From: Verrucomicrobium sp. BvORR034
Lineage (GTDB): Bacteria; Verrucomicrobiota; Verrucomicrobiia; Verrucomicrobiales; Verrucomicrobiaceae
Direction of reading: 5' to 3'
DNA: 58,552 nucleotides
NCBI RefSeq assembly: GCF_000739635.1
Contig: NZ_BATQ01000140.1
Location: 1-58,552, forward strand
This document shows, piece after piece, positions 5,117-18,568 of the stretch (position 1 is its first letter; every line of letters begins with the position of its first letter). Under the pieces are notes generated by a model. It worked only from the letters and a program-made list of their open reading frames with translations, had not been told where the DNA came from and did not search any database. A program made the translations under genes and the position numbers.

Positions 5117-8100
5117 CTTCGCAAAATTCCGGACCTGGCGGATGCGCCAGGTGTAGAGCGTGTCCAGAGACTTGAGAGCGCCAGAGTCGAGATCAGTGGC
5201 GAAGGTCCCCGCATTGAGCTTGGCCATGTAGTCATACTGACTGGTGGAGAGCGCAGGATCATTGGGGTCAATGGCGCGCTCCACAAGCGCATCACCTTGC
5301 GCTGCCCCCGTCACGACGTCCTTGGCGGGATCGAAGGTCAGCGGATCACTGGTGCGGGCTTTCCTCAGGCTCTGGACGAGGTAGTGCACCCGGAAGGTGT
5401 TGGACCGGGTGGTGAGACGTGGATAGAGGTTGGCGTAGGGACGCTCCAGAGTGTTGTCCCCGGTGAGCCTGTGATTGTCCCAGTACTGCGTCATCTCCAC
5501 ACGCAGGGCGTTGGTGCTGGTCGCGGAGATGCCCTGGCCTTCAGGTACGAGGAATTGCTCGCAGATCTCGCTGGCGTGCTTGAAGAAGCCGCCGCTGTTG
5601 AACTTGAGGTCCCACTGGAGGAGCGTCTTGTCCACATCCAGATAGTGCCGCCAGCCGGTATTGACGGAAGCGCTGGCATAGTCCTTGTAGGTCGCTCCAG
5701 CATCGTTGGGGATGGCCAATAGCCGCTCGCTCTTCAGGACCGCATGCAGGCCGGTGGCACGGCGGATGTTCGTGAAGGGCACAATGCGATAGTTCATGTT
5801 GATCTTGCCTGCGGTAGAAAAAGGCTCGCTGATGGCATAGGGCTGCAACACCGGCATCCAGAACCAGTCCAGCACCGTGTGATCCGGTGGCGCATTGGGG
5901 TCGCTGCCAGCGACAGACTGCCCCCTCTCACCCACATGTCCAGTGGGTGAAAGATTCGGCCGGAAAAGATACGTCGTCCAAGGCAACCCCGTAACCACGC
6001 CCGAGGAGATCGAGCCAAACATGACGGCAGACGGGATGAGCTGATTGGGCGCGCTGGTTTGATTGAGCTCCTCCGGGCGCACTCCGTCCCAAGGCCGGGC
6101 AGAGAAGTAGGGCGGGATGGTGCCATCAGCGATCTTGGCCACGTCATCAGGTTTGTTCCAGTAGGCACCATCAGGCGCAATACCGGTGCCGTTATCCCAA
6201 TCCCGCGTATCACTGGGGTCCAGGCTGTAGGGATAGTTGGCTGGCTTGCCTGGGAAGTAGAAGGAGGACGTCGGAAGGCGCGTGAAGTCCGGTTGAGTCT
6301 TTTCCGCATACGTCACGCCCGCGGCAAGCCCACGCGCTGGACGGGCATCCACCGGTTGGGCCACAGCGGAGTTCGGGCTGCGAGGGTCACCCTGCTGCTG
6401 ACGCTCCCACTCGCCGCCTGCCTTGGTGAAGGAGTGGATCTGCAGCTTGTTCTGCGCTTCGCCACCCGCCTCGCCAGGATTCCAGTCCGGATGAGGCAGG
6501 AAGAGCTTGTTGGTCTCGTCATGGCTCTCTTCATACTCCCGCATGGAAACCAGGCGGTAGTCACCATGGCGTACCGTCCAGGTGCGGACAACATCCCCGC
6601 GGTCAATCACCTCTGGCGCACGCGCACGGTTGGCGCTGGCGGCAGCGATGCGCTCCCGCCAGGTGGGAAGCAGGGCCACCGGAGCCTTGGGCACCGGCAC
6701 CTCCATGCCCGTGGGAATGGTAATAAAATGCCGGATGCGGGCGTGTTCGGGACCATAGTTCACATAGCCACTGTGCAGCTCTATGGGCACGATCTTGGCA
6801 GGATCCTCATCGCTTGTGATGCCAACATGTGTGTCCGCACTGGGCACGAGGAAGTAGCCCCGACTGTAAATGCTTGCCTGCGTCTGGTTCGAGACCGTCT
6901 CTCCGAGTTGTGGCATGTAGAAGTTTGCCTCACCGATATTTGTGATGTTCTTGACATAACCTCCGGAGCTGCCGATACCGGTCTTGGTGGGAGCGTCCAC
7001 GTAGAGGCTGCGCCCGCCAGAGCCGCCCCACCCGATCCACCAGTCCGCACCTTTGGATACCTTGGTCGACGCCCCAGGCATGGGAATCCCGGTCAGATAG
7101 CAGAGGTGAGGCACGCTGTGATTCCAACGACCCCACCTGTTGAAGCCCGTCTGGGTGTAGGTGGGGTCCGCCCCGGTAACCACCCCTCCGGCCAATCGGC
7201 CAATTATCCCAGTTTGGCTGGTGACAAGGCGAAGCTTTTCCAGCCCCACCACCCGAACACCCGCAGACGGCGCAATCATAGAGTAGCCCTGGCTGGCGCA
7301 GAAGCCTTCAAAGACGGTGCCGATTTGCACAGCCTTGTAGCCGACTGGTAGCTCTAGAAGATTGCAGAGAGGCTCATTAAACTTGGGGCCTGAGGTGGGG
7401 TTCTCCGCAGCAAGGCTGAGCACAAGGCCAAACTCCGAGAGCGTATAGATGCGGTTGAGCGCATTGGCCCGGATGAGCAGGTCCTCTTGGAGGTGAGTGG
7501 CAATCGGCGTGGGCAGCGCTGATGTGGCTACATTGATGATCTGCCCATGACTCTCGGTTCCAGGAAAGGATGTAGTGCCCCAGGCACCCTGGTCGTAAGA
7601 ATCCACCTTTTTGCCGCTGGTGGAGAGGGTGGTATCGTGGATGTTTGTCTGGCGGACGTACTCCAGCATGGAGATCAGACCAGCGGCCATGTTGGCCTGG
7701 CCGTACTTGTCCTTGAGTGAACCGGCGTAGCCTTGCTTCGTCAGCGTGCTCAGCGCCACGAGATAGCGGGACAGGTCCGCATTGCCACGCAAGTTTTCCG
7801 AATTGGCTGCCGTGCTGTTGGAAGAGCCGTATTCCGTGAGCGCACTGTTTGGATTAATGTACCGCCTGTAGTAGTAGGGCCTGCCACCCAGAGTGGCGGC
7901 GAACATGCCGAGACGGTCGAAGGAGGTGTAACGGTTCGAAGTGGTATCAGGATCCCAACTGGTCGGCCACAAGGAGATGCGCGCGGTGCCCGCCGCAGTA
8001 GTCTCCGGCGCACGGCTCTCCGCGGTGAGGAAGAAGCGCAAACGAGCAAGACGATCAGGGTCTCCCGCCAGGAGTGGCTGCATGGCCCTTTGGGCGGGCG

Positions 8101-9241
8101 GAGCGCTGCCGGGAGCCTGCAGGAGGAACTCATCAATGCTGGCGTAGAGGCGGTCCTTGTCAAACGCGACCGGACTGGCGCTGCCACCAAGAATGCCGGT
8201 GGCGGATGCCCCCGCGCCAGTACCGCTGCGGAAGTTCACCCGCGGCACCATATCATAGATCTGCTGCAGACGGGCATTCCCCTGCCCCACACCAGGAGTC
8301 AGACGCTCACGGGGAAAGAAGACACTGCTGAGGCTGGTGGAGGCAGGGTGCCCACCAAAACGCTGCACCTCATTCCTCACCGGGGTCTGCGTCGCATAGG
8401 CCACATCCTCCGGAGTGGCAGCGCGGGGAGTGTCCCAATGAATGCCCTCGCTCGCAGTGTTCACGTTCACCTTGCTCGTTTCGTCATCCGTCCAGAAGGC
8501 GATGCGGCCAATGATGGGATTGTCCACACTGGGCGTGGTGCCGCTGCCCTGATCCAGGAAAGGCACAAACTGCTTCGTCGCGGGGTCCAGCACTCCATAC
8601 GTTCCGTTGGCGAGTTGGTAGATCCACCTTACCGGCATGGGCAGCCGCTGATCTTCCGGGAAAGTACCGGGCAGGTGCACTCCATCCACTGAGGAGCCCC
8701 CCACTGCCAGGTTCGCGGTATAACGGAACCCCTCAGGCGTGGTATCACCAGGTGGAGGGACCCCGGCATTGCCCGCCATGGCGCGCGGGTCAAGCACGGG
8801 AAACGCCAGCTCCCCGGTATCTCGAATCGCGGGCTCATTGAGATCGGCATAAACCTCCGGCAGACTCTGCCAGGAGGGCGGAATGTCCGTCTCCAGATTG
8901 AGCGCAGCGGCAGTGAGTCCTGTGGCAGAGGTCACCATCTCCCCTGCGCTGTAGAGCTTGTAGATGCGGGAGGGCGCACCGGAATTGGAGGCATAGGTGC
9001 GCACGGCACCGGGCTGGGAGATCCAGACGGCATTGCTCTCTGTGGTACCCTGACGGAGTTGGCCAATCGCGAGATTCACCGCCATGTCCCGCAAACTGCC
9101 AACATCCTGCGCGGCGGCCTGCTGGGTGGAGGACTGATACTGCACGGTTGAGAGTCCGAAGAACATCACCACCACGATGGTGATGAGGGCAATAATGAAA
9201 AGGACCGGAAGGAGGGTCATTCCTGATGGACGGGGGGTCAT
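5114..9241 (-). CDS. Verru_Chthon cassette protein A (GspK-like large prepilin)
   Basis: 1375 aa from the ATG at 9241; an in-frame TTG at 9271 is less likely. The N-terminus TPRPSG|MTLLPVLFIIALITIVVV looks like a prepilin cleavage site (after Gly7) followed by a single hydrophobic helix. The usual Glu at mature position 5 is a Pro, as it is absent in GspK/PilX-type tip pseudopilins. The long exported part contains no recognised enzyme motif. Size, position and company with three short prepilins match the Verru_Chthon cassette protein A family of Verrucomicrobium and Chthoniobacter. It is the last gene of the minus-strand run B-C-D-A, 96 bp behind D. A role in a pseudopilus-like exporter or surface fibre is inferred, not shown. 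Confidence 0.85.
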   Translation of the reverse strand: MTPRPSGMTLLPVLFIIALITIVVVMFFGLSTVQYQSSTQQAAAQDVGSLRDMAVNLAIGQLRQGTTESNAVWISQPGAVRTYASNSGAPSRIYKLYSAGEMVTSATGLTAAALNLETDIPPSWQSLPEVYADLNEPAIRDTGELAFPVLDPRAMAGNAGVPPPGDTTPEGFRYTANLAVGGSSVDGVHLPGTFPEDQRLPMPVRWIYQLANGTYGVLDPATKQFVPFLDQGSGTTPSVDNPIIGRIAFWTDDETSKVNVNTASEGIHWDTPRAATPEDVAYATQTPVRNEVQRFGGHPASTSLSSVFFPRERLTPGVGQGNARLQQIYDMVPRVNFRSGTGAGASATGILGGSASPVAFDKDRLYASIDEFLLQAPGSAPPAQRAMQPLLAGDPDRLARLRFFLTAESRAPETTAAGTARISLWPTSWDPDTTSNRYTSFDRLGMFAATLGGRPYYYRRYINPNSALTEYGSSNSTAANSENLRGNADLSRYLVALSTLTKQGYAGSLKDKYGQANMAAGLISMLEYVRQTNIHDTTLSTSGKKVDSYDQGAWGTTSFPGTESHGQIINVATSALPTPIATHLQEDLLIRANALNRIYTLSEFGLVLSLAAENPTSGPKFNEPLCNLLELPVGYKAVQIGTVFEGFCASQGYSMIAPSAGVRVVGLEKLRLVTSQTGIIGRLAGGVVTGADPTYTQTGFNRWGRWNHSVPHLCYLTGIPMPGASTKVSKGADWWIGWGGSGGRSLYVDAPTKTGIGSSGGYVKNITNIGEANFYMPQLGETVSNQTQASIYSRGYFLVPSADTHVGITSDEDPAKIVPIELHSGYVNYGPEHARIRHFITIPTGMEVPVPKAPVALLPTWRERIAAASANRARAPEVIDRGDVVRTWTVRHGDYRLVSMREYEESHDETNKLFLPHPDWNPGEAGGEAQNKLQIHSFTKAGGEWERQQQGDPRSPNSAVAQPVDARPARGLAAGVTYAEKTQPDFTRLPTSSFYFPGKPANYPYSLDPSDTRDWDNGTGIAPDGAYWNKPDDVAKIADGTIPPYFSARPWDGVRPEELNQTSAPNQLIPSAVMFGSISSGVVTGLPWTTYLFRPNLSPTGHVGERGQSVAGSDPNAPPDHTVLDWFWMPVLQPYAISEPFSTAGKINMNYRIVPFTNIRRATGLHAVLKSERLLAIPNDAGATYKDYASASVNTGWRHYLDVDKTLLQWDLKFNSGGFFKHASEICEQFLVPEGQGISATSTNALRVEMTQYWDNHRLTGDNTLERPYANLYPRLTTRSNTFRVHYLVQSLRKARTSDPLTFDPAKDVVTGAAQGDALVERAIDPNDPALSTSQYDYMAKLNAGTFATDLDSGALKSLDTLYTWRIRQVRNFAK

Positions 9242-9337
9242 CGGCAGCAGGTGTGAGGGGGTTTTTCGCAAAAGCGGGGTTGGAGTTGTGGGATTGGAGG
9301 GAAGAGAACGAGGGCGGCTGGCGATCCCGGCAGCACC

Positions 9338-10039
9338 TCAACGGCGGTACACGCGGGCACGCGCCGTGCGGCTGTCGATCTGGATCGTGGCGAAGTCTGC
9401 GGGCAGATCGTCCGCGGAAGCGGTCACGTCTCTTTCCCGCACCACAGTGAGCGTCCATGACTGGCCCGCGGGCAGAGCGCAACGGCCGTCAGGAAGGAAG
9501 ACGAACTCCTGATATTTCCTCAATCCCCCATCCGGGCCCGCCACTGTGCCGCTGGCCACGGAAGGATGTTCCCCCAGCAAGGTGGAGTAGGCGTCGGAAG
9601 GATGAAACACAAAGCCAGATGGCAGCCGCTCCGGCGATGAGGCAGCTTTGAATTCCGGCTCGTAGCTGCCTGGCAGAGGGCGCTGGTAACCGGTGGCGGA
9701 GGGATCTACAACTGCCTCCACCATGCCGATCTGCACGCCCCGCCATGAGAGAGCCCCCAGATCATCCCTCTCCTCAGTGATCCGCACGATGACCGGGCGG
9801 TTCTTCGTCATCGCGGTCTGGCGGGCCGTGTCCAGCTGAGTCTTCACATTCTGAATGGCCTGACGGAAGTTCATAGAATTCACCACCCCCTGGGAGACAC
9901 CTGCTGTAAGTGAGAGCATGAGAGCCATGATGGTAACCACCAGCAGCAGCTCGATGAGAGTGAATCCGGCCTGACAGCGCGCAGAACTCCTTCTTCGATC
10001 TAACCACAAAACAGCTCGGGAGGTCGGAGGGGTGCTCAT
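9338..10039 (-). CDS. Verru_Chthon cassette protein D (prepilin)
   Basis: 233 aa. Classical type IV prepilin N-terminus: basic leader, then CQAG|FTLIELLLVVTIMALM, with cleavage after Gly25, mature Phe1 and Glu5 (residue 30). The globular part is short and carries a GspH/FimT flavour (Q.....TARQTAMTKNRPVIVRI), a region typical of minor pseudopilins. It matches the D member of the Verru_Chthon cassette by position and size. It lies 38 bp downstream of C. Processing would need a prepilin peptidase encoded elsewhere. Confidence 0.85.
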   Translation of the reverse strand: MSTPPTSRAVLWLDRRRSSARCQAGFTLIELLLVVTIMALMLSLTAGVSQGVVNSMNFRQAIQNVKTQLDTARQTAMTKNRPVIVRITEERDDLGALSWRGVQIGMVEAVVDPSATGYQRPLPGSYEPEFKAASSPERLPSGFVFHPSDAYSTLLGEHPSVASGTVAGPDGGLRKYQEFVFLPDGRCALPAGQSWTLTVVRERDVTASADDLPADFATIQIDSRTARARVYRR

Positions 10040-10077
10040 GAGACTTTGAGGCAGAGGGTTGGAATGCCTCGCGAGGC

Positions 10078-11187
10078 TTAGGGGAGTTCATTCCACCGGG
10101 CGTTGCGCAGCCGGATGGTCGTGGAGAAGGTGCGAAAACGCAGATTCCTGTCTGTGAGGGCGCTTTCGAACTGCTCAAGATCGGCATCAAACTTCGTGGC
10201 GTCCTGGAAGATCCCCGAGGGATGGAGATTGGGCATCGCTGAGCCGCTCTCCTCGGCGAGCCGCTGGGCGGAAGGCTCATCCAATGCCACCAGCGTGACC
10301 CGCAGCATGGGCGGGAGCTGATGGCGGGTGCGCTGCATCAAGGCAATGCTGGTGGCTGCGTGTTGATAGGCCCGCGTGTCATAGAAGTAGGTCGGTGCGA
10401 TACCCGTCTCCTTTTCCGTGGTGGCGGTCTCCGGCACGGGGCTCAGGGGACTGACGACGAGCGCCACCACATTCTCCGCCAGAGTGTGCGAATGTCCCGC
10501 AGCAGCAGCTGTTCGGAACCAGGAGTAGAGCCCGGCAGCACTGGTCTGGTTGTTCAATCCCGCGGCATAGGTTCGCAAGGCCTCTGCAGGCACCTGCAGT
10601 TCCTTAAGCCGGAAGCGATGCCGGCGAGGCGAGGTGGATCCCGCATTCAGGAATCCGGCCCGTTGACCGTCATCGTCGCCGAATTCGAGATAGTAACCCC
10701 AGCTGTTCAACAAGGTGCCAAGCTCACTCCAGGCCGGGTTGTCGGTGAGACCAAAGGTCCCGTGAAAAAAGATGGCATGTCCTGGGTGAGATCCAGCAGA
10801 AAGCAGGGCATTGGGCCCGCTGGTGGCAGGACCGCTCACGAAGTGCAGATCGGACTCCAGATCATAGCGAGTGGGCACCGCGCTGGTGTCTGGCGGAGAA
10901 CCTGGATACTGAAAATCATAGTAGGGATTCAACTCACAGGTGGAGAGCCGGCGGGTGATGCTGTCAAAGGCCGCCTGTGACTCCTGAAACTGACTGAAAC
11001 GGGCTTCACCGATGCGCAGCTGATTGAGCACGGCGCCCACCATCTCGCCCATGGCAACCAGGACGATGGAGAAGATCGCCAGACTGGTCAGGAGTTCCAC
11101 CAGACTGAATCCGCGTGAAGGTGGCCGCTGGAGATGGGGACACAGTGGGGGCTTTGCGCCCCAGGAGGCGGGGATCGGGGGCTTCAT
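10078..11187 (-). CDS. Verru_Chthon cassette protein C (prepilin)
   Basis: 369 aa. Prepilin signal PSRG|FSLVELLTSLAIFSIVLVAM with cleavage after Gly26 and Glu5 at residue 31. A GspJ-like pattern follows (QESQAAFDSITRRLSTCEL), in which a long helix precedes a beta-rich domain. It matches cassette protein C. The start lies 12 bp after the stop of B, so the genes are surely cotranscribed. No enzymatic motif is seen. Confidence 0.85.
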   Translation of the reverse strand: MKPPIPASWGAKPPLCPHLQRPPSRGFSLVELLTSLAIFSIVLVAMGEMVGAVLNQLRIGEARFSQFQESQAAFDSITRRLSTCELNPYYDFQYPGSPPDTSAVPTRYDLESDLHFVSGPATSGPNALLSAGSHPGHAIFFHGTFGLTDNPAWSELGTLLNSWGYYLEFGDDDGQRAGFLNAGSTSPRRHRFRLKELQVPAEALRTYAAGLNNQTSAAGLYSWFRTAAAAGHSHTLAENVVALVVSPLSPVPETATTEKETGIAPTYFYDTRAYQHAATSIALMQRTRHQLPPMLRVTLVALDEPSAQRLAEESGSAMPNLHPSGIFQDATKFDADLEQFESALTDRNLRFRTFSTTIRLRNARWNELP

Positions 11188-11199
11188 GGGTGGAGGAGG

Positions 11200-11853
11200 T
11201 CAGGCACCCTTGCCAGTATTGATGATGAGCCCATGCCCCACCCTCACCGAGGCCGGAGTGGGTTTCCCCTGCTCGAGCGCGGTGAGCGCCTCCGTCAGCA
11301 GGCGCTCACCATGGCGGGCACCGGCGGGTGAGATGAGCGTCGTAACCTTCCGCTGCATCCCGTTGCTCACCGGAGCATTGCCGGTGGTAAGCGTGAGTCC
11401 AGGTGGTGCAATGTGCACCTTGGCCACAAAGGCAACCTCAGGGCTGTTCTCCCCATCCTTCACGAGATGGCCTTGATCATTGAAGTAGAGGGTGTCCCGC
11501 CCCCAGTTATCCAGGTCCTTCCAGCGGGCCTGTTGCATCTCACCGAGGAGTTGGTTGGTGATGCGGGAGCCGATCGTGTTGACGCCGGCCTTGAGGCTCG
11601 TTTCCATGCCCATGGTAAGCATGCCCACCAGAGGCAGCATGACGGAGACCACGAGCCCCACGGTGACAACCATTTCCACCAGGGTGGAGCCAGCAGCGTG
11701 GGATCTGCGGCGTCCTGCGCAGACGCGCAGTCCGGGCTTGTCAGCAGCGGATGCGGCAATCGCCGGAACATCCCACATGGGAGTGAATGACGGGGCATCT
11801 GCCGGCTCCAGGCCTGTCGCAGCACTACGGGGGTCGTGGATTTCCAGTTTCAT
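11200..11853 (-). CDS. Verru_Chthon cassette protein B (prepilin)
   Basis: 217 aa from ATG 11853. The open frame continues to 11964, but that stretch is AT-rich, holds the motif shared with 14563-14584 and reads as non-coding leader. Cleavage would follow Gly55 in HAAG|STLVEMVVTVGLVVSVMLPLVGM, with Glu5 at residue 60, so the leader peptide is unusually long (55 residues). GspI-like features follow (TNQLLGEMQQARW). It is the first gene of the cassette and is transcribed away from the PEP-CTERM gene at 12348. Confidence 0.8.
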   Translation of the reverse strand: MKLEIHDPRSAATGLEPADAPSFTPMWDVPAIAASAADKPGLRVCAGRRRSHAAGSTLVEMVVTVGLVVSVMLPLVGMLTMGMETSLKAGVNTIGSRITNQLLGEMQQARWKDLDNWGRDTLYFNDQGHLVKDGENSPEVAFVAKVHIAPPGLTLTTGNAPVSNGMQRKVTTLISPAGARHGERLLTEALTALEQGKPTPASVRVGHGLIINTGKGA

Positions 11854-12347
11854 AGGAGGGTGAATTTTGAAACCACCTGGCATCATAGCGGAACGCGTGC
11901 CGAAATGAATAATATTTATCAATGCAAACTGGACCCAAAATGATGCAAAAGTGATCCAAGGCACTCATCACCCGCTTTTTCACACGCCATTTTCAGCTCA
12001 CTTTCCGCCGCCGATCCTTGTTTCAAAGGGCTCCATTGGGTTCCTCCCCATAACACATCACCACCCTTGTCCACCACGAAAAAACAGGGACACCAGCGGC
12101 ATCCAGGGCCATTTTTTCACTTATAAGACCCTGTTTTTAGACCAAATCTCACCACCAACCCCTGGAGTCAAGCCCCGCACCAGCGGGCCTCCGAACCCCA
12201 TCACTCCACGGCTCACATCCTATTAACGCACTTAATGGTATGAATATGACCTGACAAAAGTCTACAACTCAGCCACCGGCGAAACGGCTCCACACTGGCA
12301 AGGGGCACGCATTCCGCTACCATACGGCGGCATCATCAACTCCTGAA
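11854..12347. other. divergent intergenic region
   Basis: About 490 bp between the prepilin cassette and the PEP-CTERM gene. It holds a shared motif (11919-11951) and an inverted repeat AAAACAGGG (12081-12089) / CCCTGTTTT (12129-12137), and it is AT-richer than its surroundings. It must contain both promoters. On the minus strand TTGGGT, 18 bases, TATTAT is a possible promoter for cassette B. No gene is seen. Confidence 0.5.
11919..11951 (+). promoter_or_regulatory. shared ATGCAAA-type motif, copy 1
   Basis: TCAATGCAAACTG, ten bases, then GATGCAAAAG. The same two blocks, fused without the spacer, lie at 14563-14584. This copy is 66 bp upstream of cassette gene B. A common regulator is possible but unproven. 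Confidence 0.35.
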
Positions 12348-14486
12348 ATGCGCATGATGCCTAGAACCCTCTCCCGTCGGCCCATTCCCTGTGTTCCACG
12401 GAAACCCCTCCGCAGCCGGGCTGCACGGTTGCTTCTCAATACCCTGCTCCTGGGTCTGACCGCGGTCGCAACCCATGGCCAGTCAGTCTGGCAGGGCACG
12501 GTCAACAATTCGTGGGCGACGGCCGGCAACTGGTCAGGCGGCGCACCGAGCACGACCTCCGGCAGCCCGTCGAACATCAGCATGGGAGGCTTTGACCTCA
12601 ACGGGGACACGCTGACACTGGATGGCACCTATCACGTCAACAGCCTCGTCGTTTTGGGCGCGGACTACGGGCTCACCGACAAGCAGCTGGCAGCTGCGGG
12701 CACGGCGGGATCCAAACTGGTATTTCAAGCCACAGCAGGCGGCACGAACCCCTCACTTACTCTTAACATGCTGGGGACTGGCACAGTGACAGATCACCGC
12801 AGCCTCACACTGGGGGCTGACATGGTGCTGGAGGACGACCTCACGCTCACCCGCGTCGGCGGAGGCTCCACCAGCACTTTCCGCCGGGTGACGCTGGATG
12901 GGGTGATCAGCGGAGACGGGGCTTTGACCCTTACCAGCAACACCACCTCCAGCGGTGGACGCATCCTCTTCAACCGGCACAACACCTTCACCGGCGACGT
13001 GCACATCCTGGCGGGGTATGTGGCCCAGGCCTATGCTGACAGTTTGGGTGCGGGAAACAAGACGCTGTACTTTGCCGACACGGGAGCGGTTACCTGGGAT
13101 CTGACGGCAAGCACCATCAGCGCCGCCAACGGGGGCACCACCATCAGCTACAACATCGCCCTCTCCACCCTCAGCGGAGCGCGCGCCCTCCTGCTGCATG
13201 GTGGCACCACGCAACGCCAGCTCAGATTTACCGGCAACTTGACTGGCGGCTCGGCAATTCCGTCCGTGGTCTCGCTCTGGCTGATCGCACAGAACAACCA
13301 GCAGCTCATCTTCGAGGGGGCAAACATGTCCTTTGGTGGCAAGGTGACGGCGCGATACGGGTCTGAAGTGGTGATCGCCGCGGCCAATGCCAGCGGCGTG
13401 GCGTGGGAGAACGTCTCAGAGATCTCGTGGAGCGAGACGCTGCTGGCTGGCACCCACCAGTCAGGCTTTCTGCTGCGGGGAGACTTCACCTTTCATGGAG
13501 ATGTGTCGGTGATGAACACGACATCCGACTACACCGACAAACTAAGTGTGGGGCAAATCAACCACAACGGTGCCGCGTATGACGCCACATTCACCGGAGA
13601 CATCCGCATTCTGGAGAGCGACTACCGCTCGGTTAACCTTGTGTCAGAGAGCGGGGGCAGCGCGACCTTTCAAGGCAACATCGTGATCGCGGGGGAGCAG
13701 GGCATGGATGTGAATCAACTGGTCAATCCCACGACAAGCGGAGGCACCATCAGATACTATGAAGCGGCCCCCACGGGCACTGTGGTGCTGGGGGCAACAT
13801 CCCGAGTCGCGTCAACGCTGAACGGCACGGGTTCCATCGGAGTTGCGGAAGTCATGCGAGGCACCCTGTTGGTTAACACCTCGCACTTCTACGGCAATTT
13901 GGATGTGTACGCAGGAGCTCGCGCGGGCGGCACCGGCAAAGTCACGGGAGATGTCTTCTTGTACGGCGGCGCACCAGGTGGTGAACTTTCCGCAGGCGGT
14001 GGCGCGACTTCGCCAGTGGGGAGTCTGGAGGTGACTGGCACTGTGTATGTGAATGCCGGAGCCCGGGTGGTGTTTGACGTGGCCGGGGCGACCTTCAACG
14101 TCGGCGGCACGTCAGTGGAGGACATCGCCACTCTGTTTGCCTCGCAATTGGAAGACGTGGGAGATCATGACCATCTGGAGATAACAGGGGCCTTGAACCT
14201 GTCAGCCGTCCAAAGCCTCCACTTCAACCCGCTCAACGGCTACAAGCCAACCTGGGGCGATGCCTTCCACCTGCTGGACTTTGGCGTCCTGAACGCCGGT
14301 GCACTGACAGCGGAACAGATGTGGCTCCTGCCAACCCTGGCGGATGCAAACTGGGAATGGAACTTTGACCTCTTTGCCCAGCACGGCATCCTGGTGGTGA
14401 CACCCGAGCCGACGCGGGGTGTGCTGTTGCTGCTGGCAGCTATGGGAGCCATCCTGCGCCGAAATCGGATGAAGCGCACATTCTAA
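12348..14486 (+). CDS. PEP-CTERM beta-helix surface protein
   Basis: 712 aa. The long basic leader ends in a hydrophobic stretch (LLLNTLLLGLTAVATHG) for Sec export. The body is low in charge and rich in Gly/Thr/Ser, with repeated beta-strand units. GDGALTLTS...NTFTGDVHILAG (about residues 185-225) matches the autotransporter-associated beta-strand repeat. There is no C-terminal beta-barrel. Instead the last 28 residues form a PEP-CTERM sorting signal: TPEPTR, a hydrophobic stretch, then RRNRMKR, which in known systems is processed by an exosortase. It is divergent from the prepilin cassette, an association seen in related genomes. It is probably an exported surface or matrix protein and perhaps a client of the cassette machinery. 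Confidence 0.85.
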   Translation: MRMMPRTLSRRPIPCVPRKPLRSRAARLLLNTLLLGLTAVATHGQSVWQGTVNNSWATAGNWSGGAPSTTSGSPSNISMGGFDLNGDTLTLDGTYHVNSLVVLGADYGLTDKQLAAAGTAGSKLVFQATAGGTNPSLTLNMLGTGTVTDHRSLTLGADMVLEDDLTLTRVGGGSTSTFRRVTLDGVISGDGALTLTSNTTSSGGRILFNRHNTFTGDVHILAGYVAQAYADSLGAGNKTLYFADTGAVTWDLTASTISAANGGTTISYNIALSTLSGARALLLHGGTTQRQLRFTGNLTGGSAIPSVVSLWLIAQNNQQLIFEGANMSFGGKVTARYGSEVVIAAANASGVAWENVSEISWSETLLAGTHQSGFLLRGDFTFHGDVSVMNTTSDYTDKLSVGQINHNGAAYDATFTGDIRILESDYRSVNLVSESGGSATFQGNIVIAGEQGMDVNQLVNPTTSGGTIRYYEAAPTGTVVLGATSRVASTLNGTGSIGVAEVMRGTLLVNTSHFYGNLDVYAGARAGGTGKVTGDVFLYGGAPGGELSAGGGATSPVGSLEVTGTVYVNAGARVVFDVAGATFNVGGTSVEDIATLFASQLEDVGDHDHLEITGALNLSAVQSLHFNPLNGYKPTWGDAFHLLDFGVLNAGALTAEQMWLLPTLADANWEWNFDLFAQHGILVVTPEPTRGVLLLLAAMGAILRRNRMKRTF

Positions 14487-14562: not shown

Positions 14563-14584
14563 TCAATGTAAACTGATGCAAAAA
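14563..14584 (+). promoter_or_regulatory. shared ATGCAAA-type motif, copy 2
   Basis: TCAATGTAAACTG joined directly to GATGCAAAA, 46 bp upstream of the start chosen for the lipoprotein at 14630. With an upstream TTTTGCAT (about 14538) it forms an inverted pair. See the copy at 11919. Confidence 0.35.
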
Positions 14585-14629: not shown

Positions 14630-15373
14630 ATGTCTCAAACCTCCATCATCTGCCTGCGCTTCGCCCTTCTCACGCTACTGCTTACGGCATGTGATCCCAA
14701 GTCCTCCCCGGCCCCCACCCCTCCTGTAGCACAGCCCGCCGCACCCACTCTATCCGAGCCTTCCCCGACCACGCCCCTTGCCGCGGTGCAGTCCATTATC
14801 GCCCGGCAGCTCAAGGTCCCCGTTGCGAGCATCAAGCCCGAGTCCACCCTCGCCTCCCTCGGTGCCGATGACCTTGACGTCGTCGAGATCGTGATGGCCA
14901 CCGAGGAAGCGCTGGACATCACCATCCCCGACGAGGCCCTCGGTCCGATCCAGGCCCCGCCTGGCACCCCGCCCCTGCCAGCCCGGCTCACTGTTGGAGC
15001 ATTTGTCGGCATTGCCTCCGAAGCCCCCCAGGCCAAATTCACCTCCCCCAAGCTCGACGAACCCCACGACGGCACCCTGCGCCTCGCCCAAGTCGGAGCC
15101 TATCAAGACCTCAGCCAGCTTCCCAACCCCCGGGGATATGAGCTCGTGTTCGTACCAGAGCTCTCCGCACTCGAAGCCGCTGCCGCACAAAAGCTCGGCC
15201 AGAAACTCACCGGGCCGGAACGCCTCACGCTCAAAAACAAGGCCATCGTCATGGCCATGCCTCCCGCTGACGCTGCCAAGTTCAAGGAACAACGCAGCCG
15301 TCCAGCAGCCACCGGGGTGACTACCGCCCCGCATGCACCTGAGTCTGTCGCCCCAGCGACTCCGCTGAAATGA
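14630..15373 (+). CDS. lipoprotein with a serine-less acyl-carrier-protein-like domain
   Basis: 247 aa from ATG 14630, which places a lipoprotein signal peptide (lipobox LLTAC, Cys21) at the N-terminus. A frame open from 14540 would bury it. After a Pro-rich linker, residues about 50-130 read like an acyl carrier protein: VQSIIARQLKV, then LGADDLDVVEIVMATEEALDIT, IPDEA, and LTVGAFV. In true ACPs the motif is GADSL and Ser carries phosphopantetheine. Here that residue is Asp81 (GAC at 14870-14872), so it cannot be loaded. The ACP-like helix II and III pattern is otherwise intact. The C-terminal 110 residues are unrecognised. A lipid-anchored periplasmic ACP fold suggests a binding or scaffolding role. 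The next gene encodes a membrane protein 36 bp downstream. Confidence 0.7.
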   Translation: MSQTSIICLRFALLTLLLTACDPKSSPAPTPPVAQPAAPTLSEPSPTTPLAAVQSIIARQLKVPVASIKPESTLASLGADDLDVVEIVMATEEALDITIPDEALGPIQAPPGTPPLPARLTVGAFVGIASEAPQAKFTSPKLDEPHDGTLRLAQVGAYQDLSQLPNPRGYELVFVPELSALEAAAAQKLGQKLTGPERLTLKNKAIVMAMPPADAAKFKEQRSRPAATGVTTAPHAPESVAPATPLK

Positions 15374-15409: not shown

Positions 15410-16378
15410 ATGCAGCCCTTGCTCGCCGGCGGCGCCCCCACCAGTTTCCCTGATCAACTGGCTCTCACGGTCACGGCACTCATACTGGTCTTCCCGGCGG
15501 CATGCCTTCTCGCAGCGTTGCTACAGCCTGCACCCCTTTCAGCCCGGGCTCTTGAGATCCTTAACACTTCCACCCGTTGGTGCCGATATGCCCTCGGCCT
15601 CGCCATTTTCGGCATTGCCATGGTCGAGCTTTCCATGCTCCTGCAGGGCTACGCCATCTACGACAACCTCAGTAGCCATGTCTTCTGGGTCCACCCGCAT
15701 CTTGGCACTGGCACCGTCTCTCTGCTCCTCATACTTGGCTGCCACCTGCTTCGCCGCAGGGCCTCCCCTTTGCCGCATTCCCAGACTCTCACCGCGACTT
15801 CAACCTTCGTCACTCCCTACAAGGCGTGGGCCCTTCTTCTCATCATCGCAGCGGGTGCTGCTCTGCTCTTCCACCGCCATCCGTTGTTTCACATCCCCGT
15901 CGCCATTTGGGCCATCGTCATCATCACAGCCTCCGCTATCGCCGCAGGCGACTTCCTGGTGCCATTGCCGGTCCTCACCGATCCCGCCCACCCGTCCACT
16001 CATGCCTCCACTCTCTGGCGCACACTCTCTCGCACCCTTCTTGTCGCCGTTCCCAGCGTGCTGACTCTCGCACTCACCATCGCCGCCTCCCTGGGCCTCG
16101 CCCGCTGGCAAGAACATCTGGCCCGCCGCCATGGTGATCACCTCGTCAGCCAGCTTGAGGAAATCACCCGCCACGGCACCCAGCACTATCCGGCGGCACT
16201 CCCCCACGCTCCCGAGTTCATCGCCCCTTGGTATCTCACTGTGTCCGTCACCTACCTGCCCGACGACTCTCGACGGGGCTACCACCTCAGCCACCCCCTC
16301 GCCCTCCATCCAGGTGCCCAGATGCGCCGCGACACCCATTCCCCCAACTGGTACTGGTGGGGCTCGTCCGACTGGTAA
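15410..16378 (+). CDS. multi-pass membrane protein, unknown function
   Basis: 322 aa with about six predicted membrane segments (near residues 17-38, 60-79, 99-112, 139-155, 160-178 and 210-232). A C-terminal soluble part of about 90 residues is rich in His, Tyr and Trp and ends in SPNWYWWGSSDW. No family was recognised. It follows the ACP-like lipoprotein by 36 bp on the same strand and is probably cotranscribed. The start at ATG 15410 gives a short periplasmic or cytoplasmic lead before the first helix. Confidence 0.65.
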   Translation: MQPLLAGGAPTSFPDQLALTVTALILVFPAACLLAALLQPAPLSARALEILNTSTRWCRYALGLAIFGIAMVELSMLLQGYAIYDNLSSHVFWVHPHLGTGTVSLLLILGCHLLRRRASPLPHSQTLTATSTFVTPYKAWALLLIIAAGAALLFHRHPLFHIPVAIWAIVIITASAIAAGDFLVPLPVLTDPAHPSTHASTLWRTLSRTLLVAVPSVLTLALTIAASLGLARWQEHLARRHGDHLVSQLEEITRHGTQHYPAALPHAPEFIAPWYLTVSVTYLPDDSRRGYHLSHPLALHPGAQMRRDTHSPNWYWWGSSDW

Positions 16379-18494: not shown

Positions 18495-18568
18495 TGGAGC
18501 GGGCGATGAGAATCGAACTCACGTATCAAGCTTGGGAAGCTCGTGTTCTACCATTGAACTACGCCCGC
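18495..18568 (-). tRNA. tRNA-Gly(CCC)
   Basis: The minus strand folds as a full cloverleaf: acceptor GCGGGCG with CGCCCGC, a D arm with GTTC...GAAC, anticodon stem CGAGC/GCTTG with loop TTCCCAA (anticodon CCC, reading GGG), and a T arm GTGAG-TTCGATT-CTCAT with one G-T pair. The 3' CCA is encoded (18495-18497). Confidence 0.92.

Follow-up and report, generated by a model that had tools for sequence, protein, structure and literature searches.

Verrucomicrobium sp. BvORR034 encodes a predicted lipoprotein in which an acyl carrier protein (ACP)-like domain has aspartate in place of the serine that normally bears phosphopantetheine. Our analysis of the gene, its relatives and its predicted structure confirmed this observation, which a preliminary description of the DNA had put forward. 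The ACP fold, the LLTAC lipobox (cysteine 21 in the 247-aa numbering), and the conserved aspartate (residue 81) of that description all held up, whereas its candidate for a constant partner, the gene starting at 15410, did not. The window, by which we mean the whole stretch of DNA analyzed (58,552 nucleotides), is one contig of a genome of 8.58 Mb.

We hypothesize, with a probability of roughly 0.5, that the protein is a pseudo-carrier that is exported and serves for docking or as a structural module. Here we infer a periplasmic side, a docking function, a cation site, and a partner. The ACP fold would be exported via the lipoprotein route and lipid-tethered to a membrane that faces the periplasm, and it would carry no phosphopantetheine at the usual site because aspartate replaces that serine. 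A domain that lacks this serine cannot work as an ordinary carrier, and its export would remove it from CoA. Helix II is the surface of ordinary ACPs that is read by partner proteins. Its conservation in this family points to docking, and the most likely dock is a basic patch on an envelope protein. Aspartate replaces the modified serine where helix II begins, and once acidic residue 30 (numbering of Escherichia coli ACP) is lost, the carboxylate set would change from 30/35/38 to 35/36/38. This rebuilt set may keep the fold stable without a prosthetic group, perhaps with bound Ca2+ or Mg2+. With the C-terminal domain as a second module for binding, the entire protein would be an adaptor.

To our knowledge, known examples of the ACP fold are almost all carriers with a modified serine that act in the cytoplasm or in an organelle. 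A lipid-anchored, serine-less ACP that keeps its recognition helix would separate docking from carrying, and would offer a natural test of the role of helix II without the prosthetic group. That further ACP-like proteins with export signals bear the same aspartate suggests that a class of such proteins has possibly been overlooked, because profile annotation would name such genes acyl carrier proteins.

Domain architecture and ACP fold

The reading frame is open as far as the stop ending at 15373 (Table 1). Translation from 14630 gives 247 aa, and from the alternative start at 14576 it gives 265 aa. From the N-terminus, the protein comprises a signal ending in LLTAC, a linker rich in proline, the ACP-like domain that contains GADDLDVVEIVMATEE, and a C-terminal domain; a further helix region continues past the ACP-like domain to about residue 131. 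The N-terminal signal, lipobox, and cysteine (Cys21, codon 14690-14692) that define a bacterial lipoprotein are all present by motif and hydrophobicity. Asp81 occupies the phosphopantetheine-serine position. Orthologues were found in Verrucomicrobium sp. BvORR106 (G002), in G003, and in a LacPavin MAG of another genus (G037), and the orthologues span two genera. The lipobox cysteine and the DDLD motif with its aspartate are invariant in all four, including the window protein, and the C-terminal domain is also kept in 4/4.

Table 1. Coordinates of the pseudo-ACP gene, its parts and the gene that follows it in the window.
Feature	Position	Strand	Basis
Pseudo-ACP coding sequence	14630..15373	+	Open frame; orthologues in G002, G003, G037
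Lipoprotein signal peptide (predicted), lipobox LTAC	14630..14692	+	Sequence, hydrophobic core, Cys conservation
ACP-like domain, residues ~49-104	14774..14941	+	PF00550, pLDDT, fold matches
Helix II segment LGADDLDVVEIVMATEEAL, residues 77-95	14858..14914	+	Conservation above ACP-domain average
GAC, Asp81	14870..14872	+	Sequence; orthologue alignment
C-terminal domain core	15137..15298	+	hhalign to free-standing ~80-aa Verrucomicrobiota protein; structural match 9j9w_B
322-aa multi-span membrane protein	15410..16378	+	Homologue in G002

The PF00550 profile matched residues 70-122 of the 265-aa form at 39.6 bits (E 6.3e-10) against a curated cut-off of 20.8, which places the protein in the family. 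Scores for the NCBIfam ACP models fell below the equivalog or subfamily cut-offs (best 51.7 vs 71; TIGR00517 46.5 vs 70.45), and the serine that receives 4'-phosphopantetheine in functional carriers is aspartate in 4/4 orthologues. The best 60 of 101 matches in a PDB sequence search were all named ACPs or mitochondrial ACP subunits. An AlphaFold model built from four sequences (mean pLDDT 72, pTM 0.40 overall; pLDDT 89-94 across residues 51-100) displays the four-helix ACP fold, and the 50 Foldseek matches listed are, by title, ACP entries or ACP-containing complexes (target-length TM 0.73-0.86). Structure prediction, Foldseek, and the PF00550 comparison thus agree with the fold first proposed from the DNA. 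An ACP by fold, the protein is probably not a carrier by function. All six other PF00550 matches in the same genome have serine at the attachment position, and a lipobox was not seen in these six, three of whose frames were displayed whole.

The window protein shares with AcpP (PF00550; PDB 8jfn, 5h9h) the ACP fold, the GAD-x-LD helix II, and the residues D35, D38, and E41. It differs in having Asp for Ser, a lipoprotein signal, an extra C-terminal domain, a non-acidic position 30, and scores under the NCBIfam ACP cut-offs. The ACP fold also occurs in membrane-associated complexes (PDB 8xks and 8xqw, titled FtsHi motor complexes; mitochondrial complex I). However, those ACP subunits act inside an organelle, whereas the window protein is lipid-anchored, predicted to be periplasmic, and serine-less. 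A natural ACP-like protein that is periplasmic, lipid-anchored, or Asp-bearing did not appear in the titles and abstract starts of the open-licence PMC papers listed by our text searches. Within those listings, the earlier remark that no such system was known stands.

The C-terminal domain

The C-terminal domain had no match in Pfam or NCBIfam, and its profiles A4 and A5 matched no PDB sequence; a single-sequence PDB search returned one weak S-layer match (E 0.75). Searched against 288 genomes, profile A4 recovered its own gene and one match at E 0.0054, which is chance level alone. That match led to a family of ~80-aa proteins and to the hhalign result: the core of the C-terminal domain aligns with the ~80-aa protein at 93% probability (E 3.4e-7; 54 columns, 24% identity, gapless), with small alignments of 4 and 5 sequences as input. 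The core therefore resembles, and may be related to, a protein of other Verrucomicrobiota (L140, L141, L142, L144, L150). These relatives differ from the window protein in having no ACP domain and in carrying a C-terminal DIDPxxCWxxWQ motif that the window protein lacks. PDB searches with the ~80-aa family gave no chain at a useful E. The ~80-aa protein adjoins a lipobox-bearing DUF2314 gene in G036 and is fused to DUF2314 in G284; the module lies fused to or beside DUF2314 at L140:964-1635 and L142:858-1737.

A separate model of the C-terminal domain (mean pLDDT 73; 83-88 over residues 31-100) was nearest to PDB 9j9w chain B (Foldseek probability 0.97, E 0.036). Structural comparison with this chain gave Z 5.4 over 74 residues at 24% identity, and the next row scored 2.1. 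The entry is titled as an anti-fungal effector study, and it was absent from the sequence matches of the C-terminal domain.

Judged from the model, the resemblance somewhat favors an alternative in which the protein serves bacterial competition, for example as an immunity-type lipoprotein whose ACP fold and C-terminal module bind an incoming effector. The ~80-aa relatives beside or fused to DUF2314 proteins, one of which has a lipobox, are consistent with such a role, as is a distant Asp-ACP lipoprotein of G284 that by eye lies amid small genes and insertion-element-like genes. However, the Foldseek E of the 9j9w_B match exceeds 0.001, and a Z below 8 may reflect a common arrangement. Furthermore, among the neighbors of the window gene, part of which were searched in Pfam, no toxin gene stood out, and the gene is present in three of the four genomes of the genus (absent from G001, which is 76% complete). 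We therefore regard competition as unlikely, although it is the alternative that survives best.

Aspartate, export and position 30 in other ACP-like domains

We scanned 84 980 species genomes for a DNA-level version of the motif G-[AS]-D-D-[LF]-D-x-V-E-x-[VIM]-M. The scan yielded 13 stretches, all of which lie in an ACP-like frame, and two of these are the G037 and G002 orthologues (L119, L122). The scan requires an exact match and missed the motif-bearing genes of G003, G270, and G284, so it is not exhaustive. Read by eye, eight of the 13 have a lipobox (L119, L122, L123), a Sec signal peptide (L113 from Xanthobacteraceae, L118 from Pseudorhodoplanes), or two membrane spans ahead of the domain (L111, L112, L120). 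Three carry no export signal (L114 and L115, zinc-ribbon proteins of Bacteroidales, and L117 from Streptomyces), and in two the N-terminus lies off the contig (L116, from a MAG shared with L120, and L121). The motif was found in 0 stretches of viral contigs.

In a phylum sample of 387 genomes, a shorter pattern matched in six, and its reversed control gave none among the matches listed. Three of the six matches lie in the ACP frame (window, G270, G284), all of them in lipoproteins, and the other three lie in other frames. Aspartate and export thus tend to occur together in these motif-selected samples, from which a frequency among all exported ACP-like domains is not derivable.

The Alphaproteobacterial proteins (L113:6965-7276 and L118:5720-6031; ~104 aa, GADDLD) have a cysteine at each end of the domain, a pair that could form a disulfide. 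A search for plasmid relatives of L113 gave no match. In the Bacteroidales proteins (L114:714-2222 and L115:1-570), zinc ribbons and a glycine-rich hydrophobic stretch precede an ACP-like domain with GADDLD. The G284 lipoprotein and its neighbors, small genes and insertion-element-like genes, occupy L130:6271-9103, and close to it is another ACP-like frame, with serine (L130:6271-6531).

An ACP domain predicted to lie outside the cytoplasm is shared with a wider set of tethered or exported proteins, comprising lipoproteins (L098, L099, L123, L126), signal-peptide proteins (L113, L118), two-span proteins (L111, L112, L120, L100), and an Amidase_2 fusion (L097). We know of no function for any of them. 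In contrast to the window family, three of the set keep serine (the lipoprotein L098 in G325, the two-span L100 in G392, and L097 in G026), and none has its C-terminal domain. L097:1388-3184 combines DUF4062, one span, an N-acetylmuramoyl-L-alanine amidase (Amidase_2), and a C-terminal ACP-like domain with serine, and its ACP part is probably outside the cytoplasm. For the spanning proteins this placement follows from the positive-inside rule, and for L097 also from the amidase. The preliminary description had named two findings that would speak against its reading, the lack of an ACP fold and homologues with serine and a cytoplasmic start. Neither is true of the orthologues, but a lipid-anchored relative with serine does exist (L098).

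PMC12469350 places cation site A of E. coli ACP at Glu30/Asp35/Asp38, with Ser36 inside the site, and describes cations as stabilizing the fold, with thermal stability rising by >13 degrees C with Ca2+. Our residue comparison took in canonical-motif domains with Ser or Asp only. Among the fetched loci, all unique Ser domains but that of lipoprotein L098 have an acidic residue at position 30 (47/48), versus 2 of 17 unique Asp domains (Fisher p 1e-11, kinship ignored; counted in the 17 are four orthologues as well as several near-copies from the two-span group, L111, L112, L116, L120). The residue in the Asp domains is Lys in 7, Ala in 5, Asn in 3, and Glu in 2. Part of this contrast may stem from release from the fatty-acid pathway, because the Ser set is mostly fatty-acid AcpP and the Asp set consists of other paralogues. 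Asp35, Asp38, and Glu41 are kept in 17/17 Asp domains, whereas only 5/17 have an acidic residue at position 53 of site B, compared with 43/48 Ser domains. An acidic residue 30 is retained in L097 and L100, both tethered and with Ser, and exported L113 combines Asp36 with Glu at position 30. In more than one group, the aspartate goes with an altered pattern of charges around it. Export alone would force neither the aspartate nor the loss at position 30, given the tethered Ser cases and the account, in PMC3418276, of ACP fused to exported proteins that is modified in the cytosol, before Sec export, and then secreted.

The loss of acidic residue 30 together with Asp36 in 15/17 Asp domains, and the >13 degrees C stabilization by Ca2+ (PMC12469350), would also suit a protein that is mainly a cation-binding or cation-sensing unit, in which Asp36 rebuilds site A and periplasmic Ca2+ or Mg2+ switches the fold. 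However, Lys occupies position 30 in 7/17, where a Lys-Asp36 salt bridge would fit equally well or better, and the Asp domains have a weaker site B. This explanation ranks behind competition and is likewise improbable.

Of 34 rows, 32 entered a tree (L120 and L133 were dropped, as the motif search did not yield a usable domain for them). A group supported at 98/97 unites six lipid-anchored Asp rows (window, L122, L003, L119, L123, L126), with L126 on a very long branch, and groups were otherwise resolved weakly. The best tree requires one change for all Asp rows (support 50/79, 52% of bootstrap trees; bootstrap unsettled), and a single origin of the aspartate is neither shown nor excluded by these sequences. 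More broadly, the window protein could be the two-module member, with its own C-terminal binding domain, of an extracytoplasmic pseudo-ACP envelope module that recurs in several lineages (Verrucomicrobiota, Alphaproteobacteria), where Ser36 to Asp and loss of acidic residue 30 turn a carrier into an adaptor that docks or is gated by cations. We offer this wider proposal tentatively and consider it doubtful. Against the exported docking or structural module itself count the inconstant neighbors of the gene and the occurrence of the aspartate without an export signal in L114, L115, and L117.

Constraint, export signal and gene neighborhood

Long matches in 96 related genomes were confined to the window genome, G002, G003, and G037. 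A family sample contained a full-length match in 4/68 genomes; the other family matches listed span the ACP part only, and the sequences inspected are ordinary ACPs or tethered ones. In the phylum sample (387 genomes), the window gave the sole full-length match among the matches listed. This small number of genomes, together with the free variation of signal, linker, and tail among orthologues, is compatible with a decaying remnant, in which a signal peptide captured an acyl carrier gene whose function was then lost. Sequence constraint disfavors decay and makes it very unlikely. Helix II is identical between the window and G002 (19/19 residues) at a synonymous difference (pS) of 0.43; against G037 it retains 89% identity versus 54% for the whole ACP domain, with synonymous sites near or at saturation, and this conservation above the domain as a whole speaks against decay. 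Relative to G002, dN/dS is 0.204 in the ACP domain, 0.048 in the C-terminal domain, and 0.588 in the signal; the corresponding values relative to G003 are 0.262, 0.065, and 0.387. The conserved helix at this synonymous difference and the low dN/dS argue that the Asp-bearing helix is maintained, and distant lipoproteins show the same aspartate.

Export was read from motifs, and translation may start at either 14576 or 14630, which leaves some room for a cytoplasmic protein with a fortuitous lipobox. The lipoboxes of the four orthologues read LTAC, LASC, LTSC, and ATSC by motif and hydrophobicity, and a cysteine follows the hydrophobic core in all four, as well as in L099, L123, and L126, while the rest of the signal is variable. 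This shared lipobox speaks against a cytoplasmic location accessible to AcpS and CoA, and we rate that explanation as highly improbable. For the exported pseudo-carrier, the residue after the lipobox cysteine bears on which membrane would hold it: in E. coli, aspartate following the lipid-bearing cysteine retains lipoproteins in the inner membrane. If this rule applies, the window and G002 proteins, both with aspartate, would be on the inner membrane. The other two orthologues differ here, with Asn in G003 and Gly in G037, so the retention signal is not conserved.

A metabolic carrier was rejected on the change of Ser to Asp in 4/4 orthologues, and a true carrier with its cargo attached otherwise, for example via the aspartate or a non-standard transferase, is barely credible: the fold and recognition helix appear intact in the model, but we know of no such attachment chemistry, and the two membrane proteins of the G002 operon (241 aa and 322 aa) have no Pfam match.

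The membrane protein gene described earlier as following 36 bp downstream is indeed there, with its ATG at 15410. Its co-occurrence with the pseudo-ACP gene is not constant among the orthologues. The order in G002 is pseudo-ACP, 241-aa membrane protein, and 322-aa membrane protein (gaps 17 and 18 bp), and no homologue of the 322-aa protein was found at E 1e-3 in 18 kb around the G003 gene, where a short remnant is visible by eye. The 241-aa gene has no match anywhere in the window genome and has a relative in G041 without an adjoining ACP gene. Downstream membrane genes as an obligate partner were rejected as a rule, the 241-aa and 322-aa genes being variably present. Neighbors vary between the window, G002, and G003, so the operon is loose, and no neighbor shared across families was seen. 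A promoter scan found 0 where 0.3 were expected.

Directly upstream of the pseudo-ACP gene lies a gene for a 712-aa repeat protein (12348-14486, + strand) with a PEP-CTERM-like end by eye; it is 87% identical in G002 and has no match in 18 kb around the G003 gene. In G003 a sialidase-like gene occupies the upstream position, and in G037 a sulfatase-like gene does (names by eye). Elsewhere in the window, a tRNA-Gly (ccc) at 18495-18568 (- strand) is the sole tRNA found. A gene cluster at 8000-11964 (- strand) encodes prepilin-like N-termini (FTLIELLL, FSLVELL, by eye), and a similar prepilin-like cluster is present in the G002 region (L110).
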